A stretch of DNA of 49,029 bases from an uncultured Erysipelotrichaceae bacterium (GTDB lineage Bacteria > Bacillota_I > Bacilli_A > RFN20 > CAG-826). A program made the position numbers and the translations under genes. Below, piece after piece: positions 574 through 15,605 of the stretch. The notes under the pieces are model-generated. The model saw only the letters and a program-made list of their open reading frames with translations, searched no databases and had not been told where the DNA came from. Numbering within the stretch: the stretch's first letter is position 1; each line of letters begins with the position of its first letter. The stretch is from NCBI GenBank assembly GCA_900316365.1, contig ONCO01000009.1, positions 1-49,029 of the forward strand, in the 5' to 3' direction.

Positions 574-1434
574 ATGTTAGATTTCTACAACTTCCTCTCC
601 TGGCTTTCAGGGACTTTCGATGAAGAACCAGGAAACTATGGTTGGTTCCATTTGATGTTTGTCGCCATCGTCGTCGTCCTGACATTCTTGGTCTGCCATT
701 TCTTCAAGGACGCGAAGGACAAGACCTATAGACGCATAGTCTTAATCACTTGGCTCGTCATCGTGCTATTCGAGGTCTATAAAGAGATCATTTTCTCTTT
801 CCATATCAACGAGGAGGACATCCTCAAATCGACTTGGGGCTATCAATGGTATGCCTTCCCATATCAGCTTTGCTCCACCCCTCTTTACGTCCTTCCGCTC
901 ATCGCCTTCCTTCCGGATAGCAACAAGGTCTGCTATTGGATCAGACGCGCTTGCATGTTCTATACCGCGACTTTCGCCTTCTTCGGCGGACTTGTCGTCT
1001 ATATCTATCCAAACGACGTCTTCATCGAAACCATCGGCATCTGCATCCAGACCATGGTCCATCATGGTTCCCAGGTCTTGCTCGGCATCTACACCGCCGT
1101 CTATATGCGCAAGAGCTTCAAAATCAAAGAAGCCTGGACCGCCGTCTGCGCTTTCGCCGTCCTTTCTGGCATCGCCATCCTCCTCAACGAGACCGTCATT
1201 CACCTTATCCCGGAAGGCACGACTTTCAACATGTTCTACATCTCCCGTCACTTCGACTGCACGCTTCCGATCCTTTGCGACGTCTATAAAGCGGTGCCTT
1301 ATGCCTTATTCTTACCAATCTATTTGCTTGGCTTCACTTTAGTCGGAGCGATCATCTTCTTCTCCGAATACGGCATCATCCACCTCGTTTACCATAAGGA
1401 ATTCGCCAAAGCAAAGGAAAATGAGGCTAATTAA
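574..1434 (+). CDS. YwaF/TMEM164-like integral membrane protein
   Basis: This is a 286-residue polytopic membrane protein of unknown biochemical function. Hydrophobic segments at roughly residues 27-45, 57-75, 100-115, 128-148, 155-175, 190-208 and 240-265 suggest seven or eight helices. Conserved-looking polar positions inside the membrane (a Glu-Lys-Glu near residue 71, the pattern FPYQLCS, and MVHHGSQ with paired histidines) resemble the TIGR02206/YwaF family, related to eukaryotic TMEM164. The family link is by pattern and is moderately certain. The next gene starts 14 bases before this one ends, so the two are translationally coupled. The protein starts with few N-terminal charges and has no cleavable signal peptide. 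Confidence 0.65.
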   Translation: MLDFYNFLSWLSGTFDEEPGNYGWFHLMFVAIVVVLTFLVCHFFKDAKDKTYRRIVLITWLVIVLFEVYKEIIFSFHINEEDILKSTWGYQWYAFPYQLCSTPLYVLPLIAFLPDSNKVCYWIRRACMFYTATFAFFGGLVVYIYPNDVFIETIGICIQTMVHHGSQVLLGIYTAVYMRKSFKIKEAWTAVCAFAVLSGIAILLNETVIHLIPEGTTFNMFYISRHFDCTLPILCDVYKAVPYALFLPIYLLGFTLVGAIIFFSEYGIIHLVYHKEFAKAKENEAN

Positions 1435-2131
1435 GAAGTTACTTTTCCCTCTCTTTTTGCTAATTGAAGCAACCCTCTTTTTCGTAATCCTCTTTGCCCC
1501 ATTAAGTTTCCTTGCCGGCAACATACTCCGTTTCTCCACCGTCGGTATCGCCACGATATTCGGCTGGATCTTCTTGGACCAAAAGCCATATTTCGTCATC
1601 TGCGCGGCCTTAACCTTCACCTGCATCGCCGATTTCTTATTGGAGATTGTCGACCCGCCTGAAAGAAGCGCCGCCACGACGTGCTTCCTATTGGCCCAAT
1701 TCGTCTATGCAGGCTATATCTGCTCCTTCGCCTACAACACCGCCGAAACGGTCGTGCATTTAAGCGTGCGCGGCCTTTTGACCATCGCCGCGGGCATCAT
1801 CGTCTTCAAGGTCTTAAAGGACAAAGCTGACTATCTCTCCCTTGTTTCTGTGGTCTATTTCGCTAACCTCCTCTTGAACATCATCTTCTCCTTCATCCAT
1901 TTCAAGGACCATCCTCTGCTCGCTATAGGCTTCCTCTGTTTCGCCCTATGCGACCTTAATGTAGGGCTATCCGTGGGCGTCTCCGCCGGCTATATCGATA
2001 TAAGGGGCCCTCTATACGATTTCCTCTTCCGCTCCCACTTCGACTTCATCTGGCTCTTCTATATACCAAGTCAAACGCTTCTATCTAGCGAGATCTACTT
2101 CCAACAAAGAAAAAGCAGAGCCTCGTTGTAA
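1421..2131 (+). CDS. YhhN-family (TMEM86/lysoplasmalogenase-like) membrane protein
   Basis: This 236-residue, largely hydrophobic protein has about eight predicted helices. Two spaced acidic motifs, TCIADFLLE (near residue 68) and CFALCDLNVGLS (near residue 170), match the pattern of the YhhN/TMEM86 family, whose animal members hydrolyse lysoplasmalogens. Whether bacterial members have that activity is not established. Its start overlaps the preceding membrane-protein gene by 14 bases, so both form a two-gene operon. The stop codon lies inside the loop of a bidirectional terminator. The substrate is unknown; a lipid-related role is only inferred from the family. Confidence 0.62.
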   Translation: MRLIKKLLFPLFLLIEATLFFVILFAPLSFLAGNILRFSTVGIATIFGWIFLDQKPYFVICAALTFTCIADFLLEIVDPPERSAATTCFLLAQFVYAGYICSFAYNTAETVVHLSVRGLLTIAAGIIVFKVLKDKADYLSLVSVVYFANLLLNIIFSFIHFKDHPLLAIGFLCFALCDLNVGLSVGVSAGYIDIRGPLYDFLFRSHFDFIWLFYIPSQTLLSSEIYFQQRKSRASL

Positions 2132-2147
2132 GGCTCTGCTTGTTTTA
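2111..2147. terminator. Bidirectional terminator between convergent genes
   Basis: A 9-bp perfect stem (GCAGAGCCT 2115-2123 / AGGCTCTGC 2131-2139) with a 7-base loop is flanked by AAAA on the left and TTGTTTT on the right. It can terminate the rightward YhhN operon and, in reverse, the leftward lipoprotein locus ending at 2145. Confidence 0.85.
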
Positions 2148-3083
2148 ATTCCCCATAAAGGTCGATGCCGATATCGGGAGAACGTAGATGTAGAATGCCG
2201 TGTACTGTATGTCGTAATAGAAATAGATGCAAGGCGCGCTGCTTTGGGTTTTGAAGCCCAAGTAGGTGGTGAAAGCCTCATCCTCTCCCTTGCCGGTCAA
2301 AACCGTATATCCGGCGTTTTGGCACGTGAGCGCGTAACGAGCGCCGATATCATATGGGTCGGCCACGCCGGTGACGGCGATGCCGACATAAGGTTTGTTG
2401 GCGCTGGAGGAATCGCCTTCCTGTTCCCAGGCTTGCATGGACTCGCCATCCTGAAGCGCGTATTCGGGAACATTGCTGCCGATGACTTTGCTAATCAAAT
2501 CAGTCGGCCAAGCGTTCTTAGGAACGACGACATATGGATAAGCGTAGATGCCTAAGGCCTCTTTGCCGTTATCCGCGCCTTCAAGAACCCACATCTCCAC
2601 GCCGTGAGACCCGGTTTCAAAGTCGCAGACATAGGCGGAATAGGACTTGTTGTAAGTGACCGCCCAGTTACTGAGGGTCAATTCATAGATGTAATCGGTG
2701 ATCGCGGCCTGAATGACTTTGTCGCCGCCTTCTTCGCCCGGTTCGTTGGTCGTGGACGTATGGCCTTCGAAGAAGCAATAGACCCAAAGGGTTGGATCGC
2801 CATAGCTATCCACCCCTTCTTTGGTGCGGAAGGTATCATGCCTGGCTTCTGGGATAACCATGCCCAAGGTGCGAACCATGGTTTCCCTGGTCTCGGCGTC
2901 CCAAGCGGTTCCATTATCAACACAAGAAGATGAGGTAACCGGCTCTTGGCTAGAGGCGACCTCTTGGCTGGACGTCGGGTCGATTGGAGTCGAAGAAGGG
3001 TCCACAGGATTGGTTTTATCGCAGCCGCTTAGGAGCAAAAGCGAAAGGGCCGCTAATAGATAGGATTTCTTCATACTCGTCAT
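2145..3083 (-). CDS. Serine-rich lipoprotein with two copies of an unrecognised repeat domain
   Basis: This is a 312-residue predicted lipoprotein. The signal peptide ends in the lipobox LLSGC (Cys21), followed by a Pro/Ser/Thr linker (about residues 22-52) that should hold the folded part away from the membrane. The remainder appears to be two related units of roughly 110 residues. They share an IPE/VPE motif (VIPEAR and NVPEYAL), an aromatic beta-rich stretch, and a helix followed by NWAV or GYTV. The same unit pattern is seen in the lipoprotein at 6301-7122, so the two are paralogues. I do not recognise the domain. The ATG at 3083 overlaps the preceding stop (TAATG), while the ATG at 3074 gives a more typical MKKS lipoprotein start. 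It is the last gene of the leftward surface locus. Confidence 0.75.
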   Translation of the reverse strand: MTSMKKSYLLAALSLLLLSGCDKTNPVDPSSTPIDPTSSQEVASSQEPVTSSSCVDNGTAWDAETRETMVRTLGMVIPEARHDTFRTKEGVDSYGDPTLWVYCFFEGHTSTTNEPGEEGGDKVIQAAITDYIYELTLSNWAVTYNKSYSAYVCDFETGSHGVEMWVLEGADNGKEALGIYAYPYVVVPKNAWPTDLISKVIGSNVPEYALQDGESMQAWEQEGDSSSANKPYVGIAVTGVADPYDIGARYALTCQNAGYTVLTGKGEDEAFTTYLGFKTQSSAPCIYFYYDIQYTAFYIYVLPISASTFMGN

Positions 3084-6000
3084 TATTCAGCGGTGATATC
3101 CCAGTTATCGAAAGTGTAAAGATCATGCCAGGAACTACCCATTTCGATGGTGATTAAGATGCTTCCATCGTTATTGATGACCATGGTCATGCGATCGTTA
3201 TCTTCGTTAAGGAGCGAATAGGTATTTCCATCAACGCTCTGAAGTACGAAGGTGGTGTCGACGCCCATAAGGTCGTCGACCATATTGAATTCGGTATCGG
3301 AAACAAAGGTATATGTCCAGGTGGCGTAATATGCGCAATCCATGTTGGAATAGGAATGTCCGACTAATTCGCTCGGGAAGGAAGCGGCTGGAGCTTCGGA
3401 ACTAACGGTGACGGTCGCTTTGCCAACGATGCCGGATCCATCTTTCGCAGTGGCGATGATTTCCGCGGTTCCTGCTGATTTTCCGGTGACTTTGCCGCTA
3501 GAAGAAACGGTGGCAACGGCAGGTTTAGAGCTAGACCAGGCGACGCCTTTATCATCGGCATCGCTTGGGTTAACGGTGATGCTAGCCTGGGTGGTTCCGC
3601 CGATGGCGATGGTGTCGTTGCCCAAGGTAACGGAGATGCTGGTGACGAGTTTCGGAGCGGCGACGGTGATGGTGATGGTCGCGGTCAAGCCGGACTCGCT
3701 GGTCGCGGTGACAACAACGCTGCCAGAGCCTTTGCATTTGAAGGACTTGCTGCCTTCCTCAATGTCGGTGGAAGCGACTTCCTCGCCCTCATCGCCGGCG
3801 AAAGCGATGACTGAGGTATCAGCTACTTCGAGTTTGAAGGCCTGCGCGGTCGCGCCGTTTGGGCCAAAGGAAGCGGAGATGTATCCGTTATCGCCAATCT
3901 TGAGGGAGGATTTGGAGCAGGATAGGCTCATGCTGGTAGCCGCGACATACTTAGTTAAGGTTTCGTTCTGGCTATAGACATTAGCCTTGTAATTCTTGCC
4001 AGCGACGTCGAGGTTATAGCTGTAATCGGCTTGGTTGGTGAAGGAAGAGGAGACTTTGATCTTGAGATAGCCGGCGGTGTTTTTATCGGTAAAGGTTCCG
4101 AAGATGGCATAGCCATCATCGTCATTGCCGGAATAAGGAAGGGTGAATTCGGCTTCGCCGTCGAAACGGATCTTTACCTCGGAGGCGCTGACTTCGAAGA
4201 AGTTTGGCTTGTAGTCACCTTCTTTCCAAATGCCGATCAGGCCGGTAGCGACGCTATCCTCTGGGAGGACGGTGATGGTGATTTCGTTGGATTTGACCTC
4301 TTCGTCGGTCGCGCCATAGGCGCTGGTAGCGTAAATGGTGACCTGGCCAGGAGTAAGCGGCGTCAAGACGCCGTTCGCGCCGATGGTCGCGACAGAGCTA
4401 TCGCTGACGTGCCAGGTGATGGACTTGTTGCTCGCATTGTTTGGAGTGACGGAACCATTAATCTGGAGAGTGTTGCCCATCTTGACGCTGGTGGCGTTAT
4501 TCGCCGCGGCGATGCTGACGGAGGTAACTGGGTTGTTTGGAGCCTCATAGTGGGAATGGCACTGGTCATTGGCGATGAAGGCCACGCCTTTGAGGGACAT
4601 CTCATAGGCGGTGCCGATCATGTTGCTATAGAGGTGGATTCTGACTTTGGAGGCAGGAGCAAAGCTCTTTTCCATCAAGTGGAGGTTATCTGGGGAGTTA
4701 TGTTCCTTGACCTCGTCGGTGATATCAGCGACCTCGGTCCAAGTCTGACCATCATTGGAGGTTTCGATGGCAATCTTGGTGAGGTAGTTCTCACCGACAT
4801 AGTAGTTGCTGAATAAAGCGCCGTAATAGAAGGAGATGCCAGAGACCTGCTGATCGGAGAAGTCGAAGGTGGCCACCGCATCACCCGGGAATTCCTTATT
4901 CATGGTTTCCTGCTGTGAGCTCTTCATGACCATGACGTTAGCGCCGTTGAAGATTGGGCTAGATTCGGTGCCGGTAAGGATTCTGACGCCTTCGTTGACG
5001 GTGACGTCGAATGGTTTGGTGTTGTTGATGCTGTTGGTGGAGGCGACATTGCCATCGATCAAGGTGCCATCGAAGGTTAAGTTATAGACCGCGCCGTCAA
5101 GATTCTGAGAAGCGAGTGGGTTAACGTGGACCTTGATGTGGTTGCTCTCGACTGGGGTCGCACCAGCTGGGGCTTCGGCGACGGCATAGATTTCGCAATC
5201 ACCGGCGGAAGCGCCGACGATTAAGCGGGCATGGGTGTTGTTATAGCCGACAAAGGCGACGTCTTCATTGGTGGAGACGTAAGTGATGCCGTTATGTCTG
5301 ACTTGTCTAGCTTCTTCAACGCCATCTGGGGCATCCCAAGTAGCAGAGAGGTCAAATGGAATACCTTCTTCGATTTCAACGACATAGGTATCGTCATTCT
5401 TTAAGGCATTCTCATCGACATCGATGGTCAAAGAGGCAGGATAGACCTGGACCTGAGGTCCGCTCCAACCTTTGTATTGCCAATACTCTTTGACGTTATT
5501 CGCATTCGGAGCTTCTGGAAGGGTGCCGGTCCAGGAGGTGGTGCCAATCTGATATAACTGAGCGGCGACGATGTTCTTGTCGGTGTCGATATCGACGTCG
5601 AAGCCACCGATTTTATTAAAGGTTAAGGTAGTTGGGTCAATGGTGAAGAAGATGGTGTTGATGGAGACGTCATACGCCCAGGCGTAAGCTTCCTCGACGA
5701 TCTCTTGGACCGCTTCGGCGTTGACGATATAGAAGACGCCTTCCATGTACTGGACTTTGGCTTTGTATTTGCTAATGCCGGCCATGACCTCACGGATGTC
5801 GAGGGAGTTCATGTTGCCAAGACCAACCTTCGCGCCGTTATAGCCTTCCTTTAACCAGGAGTTCACTTCACCGGCATTGGCAGCCTTGAAGTATTGATAA
5901 GATTCGCCCTGGTAGTCATGGAAGTATTGGGAATAGTTCTCATCAAAGACGATCTGGTAGTCGTTATAGTAGGCCTCATATTCGCCAGTCTCGAAATCGT

Positions 6001-6283
6001 TGGCTAAGGCGCCGCTATAGACGGTCATATTGCTGTAATCCGCCGCTAAAGCGCGAGTCAAGGCTTCCTGGACGGTGATTACGCTGCCACCACCCTGGGA
6101 AGAGGATGGAATGGTCGCGGAGCTCTCAGAGACTGGGAGAGAAGAGATAGCATCAGAAGCGCTTGGGATGGAAGTCGCTGGATTATCGATGCTAGAAGAT
6201 GGGGTGTCGTTATTGTTCTCGCCGCAGGAGACAAGACCCATTAACGCGGCGGTAGAGAGAAGAAGCAAACTGCTCTTTTTCAT
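3083..6283 (-). CDS. Large multidomain Big2 (Ig-like) surface lipoprotein
   Basis: This protein of about 1066 residues is a predicted surface lipoprotein with lipobox GLVSC (Cys20) and a Ser-rich linker. The segments I see, in order, are: an unrecognised N-terminal domain (about 70-290); a degenerate Ig-like domain (about 290-400); a beta-sandwich region containing KIAIETSNDGQTW, reminiscent of discoidin/F5-8C carbohydrate-binding modules (about 405-575); a clear Big2 domain with the pattern VTPNNASNKSITWHVSDSSV (about 590-680); a unit starting GLIGIWK (about 685-785); two further Big2-like domains, the second with SSKPAVATVSSSGKVTG (about 790-985); and a C-terminal domain starting SELVGHSY. 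I see no catalytic motif, so adhesion or glycan binding is the likely role. The second ATG (6283) is chosen because AAAGGA lies eight bases before it; an ATG at 6289 is too close to that site. Confidence 0.8.
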   Translation of the reverse strand: MKKSSLLLLSTAALMGLVSCGENNNDTPSSSIDNPATSIPSASDAISSLPVSESSATIPSSSQGGGSVITVQEALTRALAADYSNMTVYSGALANDFETGEYEAYYNDYQIVFDENYSQYFHDYQGESYQYFKAANAGEVNSWLKEGYNGAKVGLGNMNSLDIREVMAGISKYKAKVQYMEGVFYIVNAEAVQEIVEEAYAWAYDVSINTIFFTIDPTTLTFNKIGGFDVDIDTDKNIVAAQLYQIGTTSWTGTLPEAPNANNVKEYWQYKGWSGPQVQVYPASLTIDVDENALKNDDTYVVEIEEGIPFDLSATWDAPDGVEEARQVRHNGITYVSTNEDVAFVGYNNTHARLIVGASAGDCEIYAVAEAPAGATPVESNHIKVHVNPLASQNLDGAVYNLTFDGTLIDGNVASTNSINNTKPFDVTVNEGVRILTGTESSPIFNGANVMVMKSSQQETMNKEFPGDAVATFDFSDQQVSGISFYYGALFSNYYVGENYLTKIAIETSNDGQTWTEVADITDEVKEHNSPDNLHLMEKSFAPASKVRIHLYSNMIGTAYEMSLKGVAFIANDQCHSHYEAPNNPVTSVSIAAANNATSVKMGNTLQINGSVTPNNASNKSITWHVSDSSVATIGANGVLTPLTPGQVTIYATSAYGATDEEVKSNEITITVLPEDSVATGLIGIWKEGDYKPNFFEVSASEVKIRFDGEAEFTLPYSGNDDDGYAIFGTFTDKNTAGYLKIKVSSSFTNQADYSYNLDVAGKNYKANVYSQNETLTKYVAATSMSLSCSKSSLKIGDNGYISASFGPNGATAQAFKLEVADTSVIAFAGDEGEEVASTDIEEGSKSFKCKGSGSVVVTATSESGLTATITITVAAPKLVTSISVTLGNDTIAIGGTTQASITVNPSDADDKGVAWSSSKPAVATVSSSGKVTGKSAGTAEIIATAKDGSGIVGKATVTVSSEAPAASFPSELVGHSYSNMDCAYYATWTYTFVSDTEFNMVDDLMGVDTTFVLQSVDGNTYSLLNEDNDRMTMVINNDGSILITIEMGSSWHDLYTFDNWDITAE

Positions 6284-6300
6284 ATACATAGTCCTTTCTT

Positions 6301-7122
6301 TTATGCTCTATAGATATCGAGGGTGACAACCGGGCGGTCGGTTTCAATGTTGGCCGCCATCGCAGTGTCGACATCGTAATAGGTAAGCTGGTTATATAAG
6401 CCCCAGGATTCCTGGTATCCGCTATAGGAGTCGTAATAAACCTGCATATCCCAACCTTCTTTCTTTAAGGTGTTGATATATGCGCTATAGGTTTCGGTGT
6501 CGACGCCATAGCAGGTAAGCTGCAAGACGGTGATGCCATAGAGGCTACCAGTGCCAAAGGTGTAGAAATCGGCAGCCAATGCCGGAAGCTCATGACCGCA
6601 GAATTCCATGACTTTGTCATTTGGGAAGACGCTGACCTTATCGTGGTAGAGCCATGCGGCGATCGTGACCGCCTTTTTACCGTTTGGATTATTCGCGGCG
6701 AAAGTCACGAGCAAGAAGGTATCGAAGGAGACGCGGACATTACCGACAAAGGAATTGCCGTCGGCTTCCACCGTCCATCCTCCAACCTTAAGCCCGACCT
6801 TATATAAAGCCGCCTTATCTTCGGAATCTTCGGTAAAACAAGTGATACGGGTATAGGTGACTCCGGATTCTGTCATTTCGTTTTGCGATTCGTACGAAGT
6901 CGCCTCAAGAAGCGGTAAATTGACCGCATATTGTCCTAAAGTCACAGCTAAGTCGGCATCGACTTGCTCGTTCCATCTGATCTGTTTGATATCGCTAGAA
7001 ACAGGTTCGAGAGAACTGCTTACCGGGTCGATTGAAACGTCATTGCTACTGACTGGATCAACCCCGCCGCAGGCGCTTAAAATCCCCGCGGCCAAAACAA
7101 AACATATTATTCTATTCTTCAA
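6301..7122 (-). CDS. Serine-rich lipoprotein, paralogue of the 2145-3083 product
   Basis: This 273-residue predicted lipoprotein has lipobox ILSAC (Cys18) and a linker with the repeated motif DPVSS. The body is two similar units: one has LPLLEA, a central TYTRITCF strand and VGGWTVE; the other has LPALAA, TVLQLTCY and KEGWDMQ. The shared pattern is LP-x-L-x-A ... LTC/ITCF ... GW. The domain is not one I can name. The start codon is TTG at 7122, chosen because a strong Shine-Dalgarno sequence (GGGAGGTGG, 7128-7136) sits just upstream and no in-frame ATG lies near. Only 17 bases separate it from the next gene, so it is probably cotranscribed with the Big2 lipoprotein downstream. Confidence 0.75.
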   Translation of the reverse strand: MKNRIICFVLAAGILSACGGVDPVSSNDVSIDPVSSSLEPVSSDIKQIRWNEQVDADLAVTLGQYAVNLPLLEATSYESQNEMTESGVTYTRITCFTEDSEDKAALYKVGLKVGGWTVEADGNSFVGNVRVSFDTFLLVTFAANNPNGKKAVTIAAWLYHDKVSVFPNDKVMEFCGHELPALAADFYTFGTGSLYGITVLQLTCYGVDTETYSAYINTLKKEGWDMQVYYDSYSGYQESWGLYNQLTYYDVDTAMAANIETDRPVVTLDIYRA

Positions 7123-7202
7123 TCAAACCACCTCCCTAATAGTGGCGTAGACCTATAGGTCCACATTTTTTCCGAACGTAATTTTTGAACTGCTCCAAAA
7201 AT

Positions 7203-7237
7203 TGTCAATCAAAATCTTAACTTATTTTTCAAGTTAA
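7203..7237 (-). promoter_or_regulatory. Inverted repeat and TTGACA upstream of the lipoprotein operon
   Basis: In the 225-base gap upstream of the TTG-start lipoprotein gene, the minus strand carries a perfect 7-bp inverted repeat (TTAACTT / AAGTTAA, 7217-7237, 7-base spacer). Next to it is a -35-like TTGACA at 7203-7208. The -10 at 17-18 bases spacing (AAAATT/AAATTA) is poor. The repeat could be an operator; no regulator is identified. Confidence 0.35.
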
Positions 7238-7304
7238 CATCGTTACTTCTTTATCGATAAATCGGTAACGAACGGAAAAAGCCCGCTTTAGTCGAAAGAA
7301 GGAA

Positions 7305-7331
7305 GAAAAAAGACCTGCCGAAGCAGGCCTT
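7305..7331 (-). terminator. Terminator after the CBM lipoprotein gene
   Basis: The minus strand has a 9-bp stem (AAGGCCTGC / GCAGGTCTT, one G-T pair) closed by a stable C(TTCG)G tetraloop and followed by a T run. It separates the GH3/CBM pair from the three downstream lipoprotein genes. Confidence 0.85.
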
Positions 7332-7347
7332 CAAAGAGGATTATTTT

Positions 7348-8490
7348 TTACTCTTCGTTGCTGATGAGGTTGGCTGGTTTGGCGGTTGGCCAAGTGACTT
7401 CGGAGGTGCTATAGACCTTCAAGCAGTCGACCATCGGAGCGGTCGAGAGAGCGGTACCGTACATTTTTTCCATGTTATCGGTAATCATCTCGATCTTGTT
7501 CGCACCGGCTTTGAGGGTAACTTCGGCCGTGAGAAGATAATCGCTGAAAGGCTTCCAGCCATCGCCCTGCGGTGGGACATTCTCGAAGGTGATGGAGCCA
7601 TAGTTCATGGCAACGCCATTAACCTTAACCTTATACATATCCGCGTCGATTTGTACCGGAGTCTTGTATTCGGCAGAGAGTCTCATGTAGATGGTGGCTT
7701 TGGTGTCCTCGACGTCGACGTTAAGATCAAAGACAAGGTTATTGCCCTTCTCATAGAGGTGATGGACGAAGTAGCCATTGCTGGCTTTAGCCTCTTTAGT
7801 ATCGTCCTTCTGAATGAGGTTACGGCCATTTGAACCACCGCTATAGGTGGCACCCTGCATGCCTAAGCCATTACGGTCTTCGGTGATGCATGGGCAATAT
7901 TCGGCCTCGAAGGTCTTGGCTTTGACTTTCTTGGAGCCGACAGCGCCCCAAGAAGCATAGAGAGTTAACTTCTGTTGGACCGGTTGAGTGAAGTCGTAAT
8001 ATTGCGGACCGTTCGCGGAGAGCATCCAGCCGGTGAAGGCGAAGCCGCTTCTATTTGGGTCGCTAGGTTCAGCGATAGCCTGCCCTTCGGTGACTTTGGT
8101 CACGGTAGGCTGCGGAGCGCCTTCGTAGTTGAGGTTGAAGGTTACGTCAAGGATCTCAAACCAACCAGCATAAAGGTTGGTGTTCTTGGTGATCGTCTTA
8201 TTGAAGTCGTAAACGTTAAGGCAATCTGCATCCTTGAACCAATTGTTGAAGACGTGACCATCCCAAGTAGGATCATCTGGACGGGCGACCTTTTCGCCTT
8301 TATTAACCGTCTTGGTCTCGATGACGTCATCTTTGGTGCCATCATTCTTATGGAAACTGACGGTGAAAGTGCTAGCTTCCTCGCTGCTGCTAGGAACATC
8401 TACCGGCTTGCTTTTTTCGACAGGCTGGACGCAGGCAGATAAACCCAAAGCGGCGAAAAGAAGCGTCGCGGTTAAGAGTTTCTTTTTCAT
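7348..8490 (-). CDS. Lipoprotein with two InlB-type repeats and a CBM6-like domain
   Basis: This 380-residue predicted lipoprotein has lipobox LSAC (Cys20) and a short Ser/Glu linker. Two Listeria-Bacteroides (InlB B-type) repeats follow at about 43-113 and 114-182. They are recognisable from the endings NWFKDADCLNVYDFNKTIT..LYAGW and GWMLSANGPQYYDFTQPV..LYASW. From about residue 190 the region begins FEAEYCPC and contains GGSNGRNLI and LKAGANKIEM, a pattern typical of family 6/35 carbohydrate-binding modules. A role as a glycan-binding surface protein is inferred. A good Shine-Dalgarno sequence (AAAGGAGAT) supports the ATG at 8490. It lies 72 bases downstream of the GH3 gene, in the same direction, with a stem-loop between them. 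Confidence 0.8.
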   Translation of the reverse strand: MKKKLLTATLLFAALGLSACVQPVEKSKPVDVPSSSEEASTFTVSFHKNDGTKDDVIETKTVNKGEKVARPDDPTWDGHVFNNWFKDADCLNVYDFNKTITKNTNLYAGWFEILDVTFNLNYEGAPQPTVTKVTEGQAIAEPSDPNRSGFAFTGWMLSANGPQYYDFTQPVQQKLTLYASWGAVGSKKVKAKTFEAEYCPCITEDRNGLGMQGATYSGGSNGRNLIQKDDTKEAKASNGYFVHHLYEKGNNLVFDLNVDVEDTKATIYMRLSAEYKTPVQIDADMYKVKVNGVAMNYGSITFENVPPQGDGWKPFSDYLLTAEVTLKAGANKIEMITDNMEKMYGTALSTAPMVDCLKVYSTSEVTWPTAKPANLISNEE

Positions 8491-8520
8491 ATTCGTATCT
8501 CCTTTCTAAGGAATAGTTGC

Positions 8521-8550
8521 AAGGGACCACCGGTTACCCGGCAGTCCCTT
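8521..8550 (-). other. Stable intergenic stem-loop between the GH3 and CBM lipoprotein genes
   Basis: The minus strand folds into a 13-bp uninterrupted stem (two G-T pairs) closed by a GTAA (GNRA-type) tetraloop. No T run follows, so it is not a typical terminator. It may protect or process the mRNA, giving the two genes different expression levels. Confidence 0.6.
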
Positions 8551-8562
8551 TGGTTGGAGAGT

Positions 8563-11500
8563 TTAGGCCTTCTTCTTTTTGAAGACCAAGATGAGGGCGA
8601 CGGCGATGCCCGCCATGATGGCGACGCCGCCAGCGCTTAAGCCGATGACCATGCCGACATTGACGCCGCTTTCTGGCGCTGGGGTGTCATCTGGGATGAC
8701 CTCACGGACGAAGAGCTCGAAGCTTCTGCCAAGGTAAGTTGGGTTCTCATCGCCTTCGAGGGTTAATTCGACTAAGACGTGGACAAACTGGTTGGCGGTG
8801 ACGCTCGGCGTGCCTTTGATGGCGCCGTCTTCTAAGACCAAGCCTTCGGGTAATGGAGTGACTGGGTCGATGACGAGCGCGCATTCGGTGATGGCCTTAT
8901 CGTTATAGGTTCCACCGGCCTTTAATTCGTCTGGGATGGTGATTTCGATGTTGACCTCTTCGCCTTTCTTGCAGGAGAAGATGCCTCTTTCAACGCCGCT
9001 TAATTCAAGGTCGGCCTTGAGGTAGAAGGATCTGGCCATCGCGCCAGAGTTAGCGCACATCCATAAGCACTCTTTGGCGTTCTGACGGACGGCGTACCAC
9101 CAGGAGTAGGATTCGACTTCCTCGCCAGTGGCTTTGGAGGTGTAGACTGGGCAGCCTTTGCCATCGAAGGCGTCGGCGTCCCATTTAGCATTGACGTCTG
9201 GGGTGTAGTCCTGAGAATCGAGCTGGTTGTTGCAGCCGGCAAGGATTCTTGGGTTGACGTTCTCATAGGAATGGACGTTGATGTCGCTGTTGCCGCGGTG
9301 GGTCATATCGGAGATGATGGATCCCTTGAAGCCCCACTCCTGACGCAAGACTTCGGTGAGTAATGGGTAGGAAGCGGCAGTCTCCATCAAACCAAGACGG
9401 TTGTAGGAGGACATGATGCCCATGGATTTACCTTCCTGGACGATCATCTGGAATGGTTTGAGATAGAGTTCGCGGAGGGCCTGCTCGGTTAAGAAGCAAG
9501 AGACGCCTTCACGGTTCTTTTCCTGGTCGTTGACGGCGAAATGCTTGAAGAAGCAGTAGAGACCTTTGTCGGTCGCGCCGGCGACGACACGGCCACCGAT
9601 GCGGCCAGTGAGGAATGGGTCAGCGGAATAGTATTCGAAGTTACGGCCGCCGAATGGGGAACGATGGAGGTTGACGCCTGGACCGCACCAGCCATACTTT
9701 TCGCCACCGCCCCAACCGGAGCCCTGCTGATGGCCTTCGATACCGATGCATTCGCCTTCCTGGAAAGCGAGTTCGACGTTATAGGTCGCGGCAATGGTGC
9801 CTTCACCGCACCACCACATGGTGCTGAATTTGGATGGGCCGTCGGAGTCGGAGCTGCTTGGCTTGCCCAAACGGGAGATCGCTGGGTTGTGGGTGGAGCC
9901 GCCGGTGACGAAGCCGTCCATTTCGGCATAGGTGAGCTGATTCATGAATTCGTCCCACTTTGGATCATCCATTGGGACGCCGACCATTTCAGCGAACTTG
10001 ATATCGCTGGAGGCCGCGGAGGTGGAGGCTGGCTGAGTCCAGCCGAGCTTTTCGATGTCTTCCTTGGTCTTCTTGACGACCTTTGGCATGTACTCATAGG
10101 TCTCGGTCAACTCGATGTCATCGAGGGTGAAGACGTGGGTGTAGAACTCTTCGACGCGGCTGCCTTCCTTGAGAGTACGATCAGCCATGGTCGGATGGGA
10201 TGGGAAGGTGGTATCTGGGTGATCGCGATGGAACTGATCGAAGCCAACGTCTAATTCTCCTGGGAGGGAGGAATAGAAGCCCGCATCGGTGAAGCGGTTC
10301 TTGACTTCGTGTCCGGTGACGCGGTCAGTATCGTACTTGATGCCGCCCTTCATGACTCTGGTCTCGACGGTTTCGTAGGCGACGTGAGCGTTCTTATTGA
10401 TGGTGATCTGATAGTTACCACCTTCAAGTTCATAGCCCATGAAGCCGTTTTTGTTGGCGTCGAAGCAGTCGTAGTTAGCGACGTCCTGGAGATAGAAGCT
10501 GAGCTTTAAGGTCTGCTCTTCGCCAGGATCGAGCATCTTGGTCTTGTCGAAGGCGCATAAGACTTCGCTGGCCTTCTCGATTCCGCCTGGGGTGTATGGG
10601 GCGTGCCAGTAGACCTGGACAACGTCCTTACCGGCAACGTCGCCGGTGTTCTTGACCTTGACGGTGATGTTGACTTTCTCGCTGGACTTATGGAGCAAGG
10701 CACCTCTGGCATCGCAATCAACGATGGTCTGCTCAAAGGTGGTGTAGCTTAAGCCGTGGCCGAATGGATAGATGACGCCGTGGTCACCGTTATACCAATC
10801 ATCGGCTTCGGTTTTGTTCTTAGCGAGTTTATCGGCGTAGATGGTTTCGTAGTAACGATAGTCCATGTAGACGCCTTCTTCATAAGAGACATAGGAAGAA
10901 GCGCGTACGCCGTTAAGGCCGCCTTTGACGACCTTATGTTCTTCATCGGCCCAGTAGACGGAGCCGTCGGCTTTCCTGACGGTGCTCGAAGAGTTGACCG
11001 GGGAGCCGTCGGCATTAAACATCGTGTCGGCCGCGTATTCGACCTTGGTTTCTGGATCGATGTTGGTCTGGGAGTTATCGGCGAAGTTCTGGAAAGTTGG
11101 GTTGAGGGTGAAATCTCTTTCCCAAGTATCAACAGTCTTACCGGATGGGTTGACGGTACCATTGAGGATTTCGCCAACCGCCGCGGCGCCGTTCGCGCCT
11201 GGGACACCCATCCAAAGGATCGCGTCGACTTTGTCATCGGCATCGAGCTTCGCGCATTCGAAGGCGTTGCCGGAGTTGATGAGGACGACGATCTTCTTGA
11301 AGCCCTTGGTCTTGATCATCTCGAGGAGGTCTTCCTCGTTTTTGGAGAGCTCAAGGTAATGTCTTTCGCTGAGTTCTTTAGACTCCGGGGTGCATCTGTT
11401 GTTGGAGTCGTGCTTCTGGTCATGGTCGCGGGCATCGTAGGTCTTGCAGTCGGCGCCTTCGGTGCCACCACGAGCGAGGACCATAATGGCCGCGTCGTTA

Positions 11501-12030
11501 TATTCGTCAATGCTTTCTAAAACGTCATCGGTGTACTTAACCAACGAAGTTTCGCCTACGGTCGCTTCAGAAATACCTTTCCAGTTAGAGTTACCGTTGG
11601 TACGCTGAACCTCAGACTTGGTATCGTCTTTGTAGAACGAAGTAAGCTTAGGGTTAATCTCATAGCCCGCATCTTTAAGGGATTTTTGGAGATCAACCTG
11701 GGTGATGCCGCTGGCAACAGAGCCAGAGCCGGAGCCACCGCCACCATACTGGAGGTCGACGCTGGCTTTGCCGAAGATGGAGACTTTGCTGATATCTCCG
11801 CCAAACGGGAGGGCGTTGTTGCGATTCTTAAGAAGAACCATACCTTCGCGGCAGAGTTCTTTGTTAAGTTCCATCGCCTTTTGGTTGTACGCGGTCTGTT
11901 CCGAGTACTGCAGATCGGCAATAAAGGTATTGCGTTTCTGCTGGTTGAAGGTCGGGGCGTTATTGCCTGGGGAAGCCATAGCAAGTCCTAGTACGGACAT
12001 TGCCCCTAACAAGAGTAGTTTCTTTTTCAT
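8563..12030 (-). CDS. Membrane-anchored, circularly permuted GH3 glycoside hydrolase
   Basis: This 1155-residue exported protein belongs to glycoside hydrolase family 3 (beta-glucosidase, beta-xylosidase and relatives). The GH3 C-terminal domain comes first (about 45-390, beginning CREGMVLLKNRNNALPF), then a fibronectin-III-like domain (about 420-540), then the GH3 TIM-barrel (about 680-960). This reversed order is known from a subset such as Ruminococcus and Butyrivibrio beta-glucosidases. The likely nucleophile is Asp908 in GSIISDMTHRG; the motif GGTEGAD near residue 191 matches the usual acid/base loop. A He-PIG-like Ig domain (LPEGLVLEDGAIKGTPS) precedes a C-terminal transmembrane helix ending KKKKA, and an N-terminal signal peptide (MKKKLLLLGAMSVLGLAMA) starts at the chosen ATG. 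The product therefore sits on the outer face of the membrane. Substrate is unknown. Confidence 0.88.
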   Translation of the reverse strand: MKKKLLLLGAMSVLGLAMASPGNNAPTFNQQKRNTFIADLQYSEQTAYNQKAMELNKELCREGMVLLKNRNNALPFGGDISKVSIFGKASVDLQYGGGGSGSGSVASGITQVDLQKSLKDAGYEINPKLTSFYKDDTKSEVQRTNGNSNWKGISEATVGETSLVKYTDDVLESIDEYNDAAIMVLARGGTEGADCKTYDARDHDQKHDSNNRCTPESKELSERHYLELSKNEEDLLEMIKTKGFKKIVVLINSGNAFECAKLDADDKVDAILWMGVPGANGAAAVGEILNGTVNPSGKTVDTWERDFTLNPTFQNFADNSQTNIDPETKVEYAADTMFNADGSPVNSSSTVRKADGSVYWADEEHKVVKGGLNGVRASSYVSYEEGVYMDYRYYETIYADKLAKNKTEADDWYNGDHGVIYPFGHGLSYTTFEQTIVDCDARGALLHKSSEKVNITVKVKNTGDVAGKDVVQVYWHAPYTPGGIEKASEVLCAFDKTKMLDPGEEQTLKLSFYLQDVANYDCFDANKNGFMGYELEGGNYQITINKNAHVAYETVETRVMKGGIKYDTDRVTGHEVKNRFTDAGFYSSLPGELDVGFDQFHRDHPDTTFPSHPTMADRTLKEGSRVEEFYTHVFTLDDIELTETYEYMPKVVKKTKEDIEKLGWTQPASTSAASSDIKFAEMVGVPMDDPKWDEFMNQLTYAEMDGFVTGGSTHNPAISRLGKPSSSDSDGPSKFSTMWWCGEGTIAATYNVELAFQEGECIGIEGHQQGSGWGGGEKYGWCGPGVNLHRSPFGGRNFEYYSADPFLTGRIGGRVVAGATDKGLYCFFKHFAVNDQEKNREGVSCFLTEQALRELYLKPFQMIVQEGKSMGIMSSYNRLGLMETAASYPLLTEVLRQEWGFKGSIISDMTHRGNSDINVHSYENVNPRILAGCNNQLDSQDYTPDVNAKWDADAFDGKGCPVYTSKATGEEVESYSWWYAVRQNAKECLWMCANSGAMARSFYLKADLELSGVERGIFSCKKGEEVNIEITIPDELKAGGTYNDKAITECALVIDPVTPLPEGLVLEDGAIKGTPSVTANQFVHVLVELTLEGDENPTYLGRSFELFVREVIPDDTPAPESGVNVGMVIGLSAGGVAIMAGIAVALILVFKKKKA

Positions 12031-12750: not shown

Positions 12751-13419
12751 TCAAATGACTCCGCAAGGAATCAAGACGATTAAGAGAATAGCGACCAAAG
12801 ACCATTCGGCGATAAGGAAGATGTTCCTGGCCTTTGGTTTCATGTTTGGAACATAGTTGCTGGCCAAGAAGAACGGGATGTAGGTGGTGATGAAGACTGG
12901 GAGAACGCCCCACCACTTATAGACCCAGATAAAGGAATGGTTGCTAGTCGCCGCGAGGAAGGATTCGAATAAGGCGAATAAGAGGGCCATTTCGATAGCG
13001 CCGACCAACTTACAGTCAATGCCTTTGAATTTCTCTGATGCGAAATAACGTTTGTTCGTGTCTTCCGGCAGCATCTTATAGGAGATGATGCCCGCTAACA
13101 TAAACATCATCGAAAGTTCCCAGGAGACGCCGATTAAGAGAATGAAGGTCGTAGACTCATTCGAAACCGACCATAACGGATATCCGAAGATTTTGCCGAT
13201 GATCGCGTTGCAGATTTCGTAAAGCCAATGCACGCCATAAAGCGCTAAGCCGGCTTGCACAACTTTCCAGTTTTTCTTGTGTATCTCAGACCAATACACA
13301 TAGAAAATGACCGCTAAGATGAAGATAAACGTCCAGTTGAAATTCTCCGTGCTTCTCACACGAATGCCGTCAACTAAGTCCATGGCTTCTTGCGAGCCAT
13401 CGCCCCAAAATTTGAACAT
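12751..13419 (-). CDS. Integral membrane protein of unknown function
   Basis: I do not recognise this 222-residue protein. It has about six hydrophobic segments (residues 28-46, 55-75, 86-112, 133-153, 165-185 and 200-220) separated by short loops rich in aromatic residues, for example NFNWTFIFILAVIFYVYW. There is no signal peptide and no catalytic motif; a WELSMMFMLAG segment places Glu within a helix. The ATG at 13419 follows a fair Shine-Dalgarno sequence (AGAGGT) and a consensus TATAAT at 13441-13446, so it is monocistronic. It converges with yerC and diverges from the EAL gene. Confidence 0.65.
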   Translation of the reverse strand: MFKFWGDGSQEAMDLVDGIRVRSTENFNWTFIFILAVIFYVYWSEIHKKNWKVVQAGLALYGVHWLYEICNAIIGKIFGYPLWSVSNESTTFILLIGVSWELSMMFMLAGIISYKMLPEDTNKRYFASEKFKGIDCKLVGAIEMALLFALFESFLAATSNHSFIWVYKWWGVLPVFITTYIPFFLASNYVPNMKPKARNIFLIAEWSLVAILLIVLIPCGVI

Positions 13420-13694: not shown

Positions 13695-15605
13695 ATGGAT
13701 TGGAATATTGATTTCGCTTTAAGCTCGATTGTCTTTCTTGCATCAATTTTTGTTTTCTTCATGGCGCATAAGCGGCTTAGAATCATCGAAAACAAATCAT
13801 ACACAATCCTGTTCTTCGCTCTTTTCGGCTATTTTATCTTCGAATTAATAAGCACGGCGCTAGATTCGGAGCCGCGGCCGGAAGCGACTCTTTATTACCT
13901 TACATGGATCGCTAATATTGCCTATTTCTTCTTTTTGGGGCTGCAATCCTATTTCTTCTATTTATTCTTTGTCTCGCACATGCACCTGACAAAGTCGAAG
14001 TGGCGCGTTGTTTTCTATTGCCTGTCCACCTTGCCATTGATCGCCGCTTACATCATTCTCTTCCTATCCCCTTCGCTCCATACCGTATTCTGGATAAACG
14101 AAGAAGGCATATATAAAGGCGGCCAGTTATATAAGACATTCGTCATCTTGTGCGGCGTATACCCAAGCCTGGCTTTGCTGACGGTTTTATTTCTTTGGAA
14201 AAGAGCCCCAAAGATGATTGACCTCAAATTAGTTATTTCGTCGTTACTCCTTGTTATTGGTTACGTTTTCCGATTCGCCATGCCGGGAACGGTCATTCTC
14301 CCGACCTTCACCGTTTTATCGGTTATCGTCGCCTATATCGGCATCGGGAATCCACGTTATTACATGAATGAGAAAACAGGGCTTTTCTCGCAAAATGGTA
14401 TGGTCTTGATGCTCGATGAGGCGATAAGAGAAAAAAAGAATGCTCCAGTGTTGCTTCTCGTCATCACCCAATATCAAAAAAGCCGCGATCTATACCGCGA
14501 CAAAGAAATGGACCGTTGGTTGATAAAGATAGCGAAATTCCTAAATTCCCAACCTCTTAAGGTCGCCGTTTCGTATAACCACGAAGGTCGTTTCATGATC
14601 CTCACCAAAAGCGAAGAAGACGCAAGGGAGATGGAATTGCTCATTTTCGATAAACTCTTAAACACCGAGGATAAAGACGTCGCAAGCGGCCTTAACCAGA
14701 ACCTCGGCATCATCGAATGCTTGGATTCCTCCTCCTATGAAAGCGGGGACGAATACTTAAGGAGCATAGAAAGGGCCGTCTCCCTTGCCGAAGCTGGCAA
14801 AGTCATCCCCGTCGATGATGAGGTCCGCGAAAAGCAAAAACGCGAGAGTTATGTCCAAAAGTGTCTAGCCAAAGCAATCAGAGAACAAAACGTCATTGTT
14901 TTATTCCAGCCGCTTAAAGACCTGAAAAACGGCACCTTCCACTCGGGAGAGGCCTTAACTCGCATCTACGGTAAAGATGGGGAAATCATCCCGCCTTCCG
15001 AATTCATCTACTTAGCCGAGCAAAACGGATCCATCCGCGATCTTTCGGATATTGTCTACGAAAAGGTGCTTGATTTCTTAGCGGCCAACCCCGAAGAGAC
15101 AACTCAGATCAAGTCGATTTCTGTCAACTTATCGCCAATCCAATGCTTAGACCCTAACTTGCCAAAAGACTTAATCGCACGCGCTAAAGCCAAAGGCGTT
15201 GCTTTATCCCGAATCAACTTCGAAATCACCGAGTCCGCCTTTATCAACCTCGACTATCTGCGCAAGCAAATGGAGCACCTCATCGAAGCGGGCGGATCAT
15301 TCTCCCTTGATGATTTCGGCACCGGTTATAGCGACCTAGCCCGCGTCACCTCGTTGCCGTTTGAGTCCATCAAATTCGATATCTCTTTGGTCCGTTCCTA
15401 TTGCTCTGGGCAAAACACCTTCCTCCCATATCTTTCCAAAGCGGTCAAAAACAACAAACGCATGATCGTCGCGGAAGGTATTGAAGATGCGGATATCGAA
15501 AAGAAGGTATCCGATTTAGGCATCGACTTCGGCCAAGGTTTCCATTATTCGAAGGTCTTGCCGCCGGATGAGTTCGTCGAATTTATCAAGAATCAGGCCA
15601 ATTAG
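13695..15605 (+). CDS. Seven-TM cyclic-di-GMP phosphodiesterase (EAL domain)
   Basis: This 636-residue membrane protein has seven hydrophobic helices in the first 225 residues, a region (about 230-375) that looks like a degenerate GGDEF domain with no GGDEF motif, and a C-terminal EAL domain (about 390-632). The EAL domain hydrolyses cyclic di-GMP to pGpG. Catalytic positions appear intact: EAL at 419-421 in GEALTRI, NLSPIQ, EITESA, LDDFGTGYSDL, IKFD, AEGIE and GQGFHYSKVLPP. It is therefore probably an active phosphodiesterase whose seven-helix domain senses a membrane or extracellular signal. The gene stands alone; the start has no clear Shine-Dalgarno sequence and follows AT-rich DNA. No diguanylate cyclase lies in the window. 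Confidence 0.88.
   Translation: MDWNIDFALSSIVFLASIFVFFMAHKRLRIIENKSYTILFFALFGYFIFELISTALDSEPRPEATLYYLTWIANIAYFFFLGLQSYFFYLFFVSHMHLTKSKWRVVFYCLSTLPLIAAYIILFLSPSLHTVFWINEEGIYKGGQLYKTFVILCGVYPSLALLTVLFLWKRAPKMIDLKLVISSLLLVIGYVFRFAMPGTVILPTFTVLSVIVAYIGIGNPRYYMNEKTGLFSQNGMVLMLDEAIREKKNAPVLLLVITQYQKSRDLYRDKEMDRWLIKIAKFLNSQPLKVAVSYNHEGRFMILTKSEEDAREMELLIFDKLLNTEDKDVASGLNQNLGIIECLDSSSYESGDEYLRSIERAVSLAEAGKVIPVDDEVREKQKRESYVQKCLAKAIREQNVIVLFQPLKDLKNGTFHSGEALTRIYGKDGEIIPPSEFIYLAEQNGSIRDLSDIVYEKVLDFLAANPEETTQIKSISVNLSPIQCLDPNLPKDLIARAKAKGVALSRINFEITESAFINLDYLRKQMEHLIEAGGSFSLDDFGTGYSDLARVTSLPFESIKFDISLVRSYCSGQNTFLPYLSKAVKNNKRMIVAEGIEDADIEKKVSDLGIDFGQGFHYSKVLPPDEFVEFIKNQAN

Follow-up and report, generated by a model that had tools for sequence, protein, structure and literature searches.

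Two adjoining predicted surface units, a GH3–lipoprotein pair and a conserved three-lipoprotein set, rather than one five-gene glycan locus in an Erysipelotrichaceae genome

Five leftward genes in a 49,029-nt stretch of DNA from an uncultured Erysipelotrichaceae bacterium (the window) had been described, in an initial annotation, as five exported proteins of one surface glycan system. Comparison with related genomes and inspection of the intergenic regions instead provide good support for two units: unit 1, composed of an exported GH3 enzyme (8563-12030, minus strand) and a lipoprotein with InlB-type repeats (7348-8490, minus strand), and unit 2 (2145-7122, minus strand), which codes for three lipoproteins named LPA, LPB and LPC. 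The explanation we favour, with moderate confidence, is that two independently inherited transcription units abut at this site, a surface glycan-trimming pair and a three-lipoprotein surface complex.

All five predicted genes were found as minus-strand open reading frames between positions 2145 and 12030, in the 5′ to 3′ order GH3, InlB-repeat lipoprotein, LPA, LPB and LPC. The GH3 gene is separated from the InlB-repeat gene by 72 bases, and the latter from LPA by 225 bases. Within unit 2, LPA and LPB are 11 bases apart, while LPB and LPC overlap by a single base, the LPC start codon lying over the LPB stop codon. The lipobox cysteine is at residue 20 in the InlB-repeat lipoprotein, 18 in LPA, 22 in LPB (20 from the second methionine) and 21 in LPC, and is followed in all four by a serine-rich linker, as had been reported for cysteines near residues 18–21. 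The source assembly (1.47 Mb, ~94% complete) contains about a dozen GH3 genes, and ABC-type permeases are encoded elsewhere in it, on other contigs. Pfam scans of selected window genes detected no transporter or sugar enzyme besides the GH3, which agrees with the absence of such neighbours noted before.

The two units are separated by a terminator-like hairpin with a T run at the end of unit 1 (7309-7332, minus strand; MFE -15.5 kcal/mol over 7295-7350, z -3.3), and a second terminator-like hairpin lies at the end of unit 2 (2113-2141, minus strand; MFE -19.9 kcal/mol, z -4.3). A promoter-like sequence, TTGACA-16-AAAAAT, precedes unit 2 (7181-7208, minus strand); it is a consensus match only, and promoter-like sites in the region were no more numerous than in shuffled sequences. 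LPA has a TTG start codon preceded by GGGAGGT. In vivo, a transcription boundary presumably lies between unit 1 and unit 2. Two further elements were observed on the minus strand: a perfect 12-bp palindrome, GACCTATAGGTC, just upstream of the LPA ribosome-binding site (7150-7161), possibly an operator, and an inverted repeat lacking a T run, AAGGGACTGCCGGGTAACCGGTGGTCCCTT, between the GH3 and InlB-repeat genes (8521-8550), a possible processing or attenuation site.

Upstream of unit 1 lies a gene that we take to be polC, as we do rimP, nusA, infB and rbfA in the related loci, from their recognised sequences and without a profile search. In the window, polC ends the row rpsB-tsf-pyrH-uppS-cdsA-dxr-rseP, and is separated from LPA by an EAL gene, a TrpR-type gene and unit 1. 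The EAL-domain protein (13695-15605, plus strand), beside polC, has an N-terminal membrane region and is a candidate cyclic-di-GMP phosphodiesterase. A membrane protein with no Pfam match (12751-13419, minus strand) has relatives on two LP loci (L141 and L155), and a TMEM164-family membrane protein is encoded near the LPC end (574-1434, plus strand).

In single-sequence searches of 61 genomes, LPA and LPC were near neighbours in two (G005 and G022), with an LPB relative in between. A search with an LPB alignment identified 18 loci in MAGs; the MAGs carrying related loci are labelled Bacilli, Erysipelotrichales, Mollicutes or Firmicutes, and several come from faeces. When 279 genomes of the order were searched, the N-terminal half of LPB was present in roughly 40, the majority of the remaining matches being to Big_2 domains only. 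Of 295 genomes spread over the phylum, 11 carried the LPB N-terminal domain, and all of these belong to the same order. Thirty-nine LPB loci were read in their genomic context. LPA was directly upstream of LPB, on the same strand, in 27 of them, and LPC was downstream in 19, all of which also had LPA and hence the full trio; in about one third, LPB was found without LPA, some of these loci being at contig ends. The trio order is kept across families of the order at ~20–35% sequence identity. Unit 1, however, adjoins LPB at one of the 39 loci, that of the window. This conservation of the trio without unit 1 argues for two units, as does the finding that LPA and LPB lie close behind polC in one locus (L040) and come after rimP-nusA-infB-rbfA in another (L026), without an intervening unit 1. 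The LP genes may have resided near the polC row for a long time, with unit 1 arriving beside them later.

The reverse was also seen, which further supports the split. The GH3 and InlB-repeat lipoprotein pair was found again at seven loci in five further genomes (G024, G030, G042, G018 and G021), in none of which did single-sequence searches find LPA or LPC. Of 41 genomes searched for both, two contained close GH3s and a full-length LPB, 11 the GH3s only, three LPB only and 25 neither, so that no association was detected (Fisher P 0.64); together with the hairpin between the units, this also favours two units.

Co-occurrence therefore rejects a single locus of five genes, although each subset does co-occur in relatives. 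It is unlikely that all five make up a single locus for capturing and trimming glycans, recently assembled in this lineage, in which LPB would bind and the GH3 would trim. The adjacency of the genes, their common strand, the export of all five products and a CBM32-like jelly roll in LPB would fit such a locus, as would genome G022 (locus L026), where GH130 and GH2 genes and an ABC transporter cluster with permease genes come after LPC; the latter arrangement is in keeping with a role of unit 2 in glycan handling and counts against the split reading. Set against this are the single locus in 39, the hairpin, the lack of association across 41 genomes, and the conservation of the trio next to housekeeping genes or to a MoxR-DUF58-BatA operon. 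The idea of a cell-surface glycan apparatus is a fair one for the GH3 and InlB-repeat pair; the trio forms a separate, conserved operon.

The GH3 of unit 1 starts at an ATG at 12030 and is 1155 aa long. Pfam placed Glyco_hydro_3_C and Fn3-like domains ahead of the Glyco_hydro_3 N domain (78-339, 483-560 and 797-957 in the numbering of the 1169-aa open reading frame, all above cut-off), and a transmembrane segment spans residues 1122-1153, ending in KKKK; the description of this protein as a membrane-anchored permuted GH3 was therefore correct. In an alignment to PDB 5k6l, the structure of GlyA1, a permuted GH3 from the rumen (PMC5104943), the nucleophile D908 aligned with Asp-709 and the acid/base E191 with Glu-143. 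From its sequence, the window enzyme is a GlyA1-type permuted GH3 and a predicted β-glycosidase. Since both catalytic residues match those of GlyA1, and given what is known of the family, the best reading of unit 1 is that it trims β-glycosides at the cell surface.

The InlB-repeat lipoprotein (380 aa) contains two Flg_new (InlB-type) repeats, recognised by Pfam, and a C-terminal module (FEAE...DCxK) that is its most conserved part. This module looks like a putative sugar-binding jelly roll. The CBM6-like identity originally given to it went unconfirmed: neither Pfam nor PDB profile searches gave a CBM6 or CBM35 match. A scan of viral contigs found no viral relatives of the protein. In the relatives, unit 1 runs as exported GH3, repeat lipoprotein and a second transmembrane-anchored GH3 (L087, L088, L089, L091, L092 and L095; the seventh locus, L090, is interrupted by a contig end), and a LytTR regulator and a GHKL histidine kinase adjoin it in several of them. 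The third gene is missing from the window, and no ortholog of it was identified elsewhere in the source genome, the closest GH3s being ~40% identical to it. A literature search yielded papers on GH3 enzymes such as GlyA1 and no published operon of this kind. The GH3 unit is ordinary.

The proteins of unit 2 are another matter, and the earlier remark that two members consist of domains without a name is correct and is the more interesting half of that description. These two are LPA (6301-7122, minus strand; 273 aa) and LPC (2145-3083, minus strand; 312 aa), which are homologous (hhalign 99.6%), each being a tandem repeat of two units. Neither had a convincing match to a Pfam family, and PDB sequence profile searches with both gave weak, unrelated matches only. 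In the structural model of LPC (mean pLDDT 71.6), each repeat consists of a helix, two strands, a helix and four strands. Foldseek returned nothing for LPC at E <0.001. The best match to a repeat was DcrB (PDB 6E8A; Z 7.4, 93 residues aligned, 3.9 Å), with a Z below 8 that may reflect only a common arrangement. The better fold matches to the model included DcrB, PA94/EagT6, BamC, MTC28 and PsbP, with Z from 7.4 down to 4.5, and unrelated proteins scored nearly as high. Several of the named proteins fall in related fold groups, and the match gains credibility from this. Tentatively, then, the LPC model resembles the Mog1/PsbP/DcrB fold.

These matches raise the question of whether the trio might be an envelope-assembly or quality-control device, with DcrB/EagT6-like or BamC-like chaperone repeats working with a MoxR-DUF58-BatA/VWA system. 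In five loci (L028, L029, L030, L126 and L132), LPC stands in convergent orientation to a small lipoprotein gene and a VWA/BatA/DUF58/MoxR operon, and LPB clusters with small lipoproteins encoded next to that operon. However, these are just five of 39 loci, with the Bat genes on the opposite strand, and no sequence in either the LPA or the LPC alignment matched the Pfam DcrB family (PF08786) in hmmscan. A literature search on MoxR, DUF58, BatA, lipoprotein and Big2 produced nothing relevant to the trio. We regard such a device as improbable.

LPB (3083-6289, minus strand) is 1068 aa long, or 1066 from its second methionine, the length first reported. It comprises an N-terminal domain (residues ~70-262), a jelly roll (~397-575), Big_2 domains, recognised by Pfam and up to 36–39% identical to solved ones, and a small β-rich C-terminal domain (model mean pLDDT 73.8). 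The N-terminal domain had no convincing match in Pfam or among PDB sequences; its strand order raised the suspicion of a LolA/LppX-type fold. Homology of this domain with the LPA and LPC repeats was ruled out (hhalign probability <1%). The jelly roll matched the K2 adhesin domain of Kgp (3KM5; Z 11.1, 145 residues, 3.2 Å) and the CBM32 of CpGH89 (4A42; Z 9.6, 112 residues, 2.7 Å), which suggests that LPB binds a ligand; judging from the model, this could be a protein as well as a sugar. The small lipoproteins next to the Bat operon in L029 (10296-11541, minus strand) and L126 (12545-13093, minus strand), which fall in the LPB cluster, are similar to the C-terminal domain of LPB. In four other loci (L145, 7047-8654; L150, 6755-8314; L151, 6628-8178; L153, 9983-11653), a short form of LPB is followed, in place of LPC, by a different and unnamed family of exported proteins.

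A Big_2 arm bearing a cleaved-adhesin/CBM32-like domain at the membrane surface, in bacteria whose MAGs include gut and faecal ones, would also suit a unit for adhesion to the host or to neighbours, with Ig-like repeats as its framework. We consider this doubtful, since conservation over most of the length of LPB, plus two partners, exceeds what an adhesin stalk needs. There is also a slim chance that the trio is an undescribed surface machine confined to this one order within the Bacilli, with two paralogous repeat subunits of Mog1/PsbP/DcrB-like fold serving a long Ig-like arm, possibly in MoxR-Bat-linked envelope assembly.

Under the favoured two-unit explanation, the InlB-repeat lipoprotein would hold a glycan at the membrane surface while the anchored GH3 would remove β-linked sugars from its non-reducing end. 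The released sugars would be imported by transporters encoded elsewhere, in line with the ABC-type permeases on other contigs of the genome. In unit 2, the conserved gene order is what suggests that LPA, LPB and LPC would act together, as a complex, at the outer surface of the membrane. LPB would be a long extracellular arm that binds its ligand through the jelly roll, and LPA and LPC, as paralogues made of tandem repeats, would be the subunits that assemble the complex or keep it together. LPA, LPC and the LPB N-terminal domain are without a family name despite their conserved gene order, and the trio offers a defined protein set for testing what is held on the surface of these bacteria.

Among known systems, GlyA1 (PDB 5K6L; PMC5104943) shares with the window GH3 the domain order sandwich-Fn3-barrel, the nucleophile Asp and acid/base Glu, and an origin in digestive-tract bacteria. 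The window enzyme, however, is exported and has a C-terminal transmembrane anchor, and the Trp that follows the nucleophile of GlyA1, Trp-710, which stacks on the sugar (PMC5104943), is replaced by Met-909. Unit 1 resembles Gram-positive polysaccharide utilisation loci in that an exported glycosidase lies beside a putative glycan-binding lipoprotein, with a second GH3 and a LytTR pair added in the relatives' loci; it differs in having no transporter among the scanned neighbours. For unit 2, the DcrB/PsbP/Mog1 fold proteins share the tentative fold match of one LPC repeat, whereas they have no sequence match to LPC, which is made of tandem repeats and belongs to Bacilli lipoproteins. Finally, CBM32 and the Kgp cleaved-adhesin domains have a jelly-roll fold that residues 397-575 of LPB probably share, judging from the model, although the Pfam F5_F8_type_C score of LPB (20.4 bits) falls under the cut-off (28.2).
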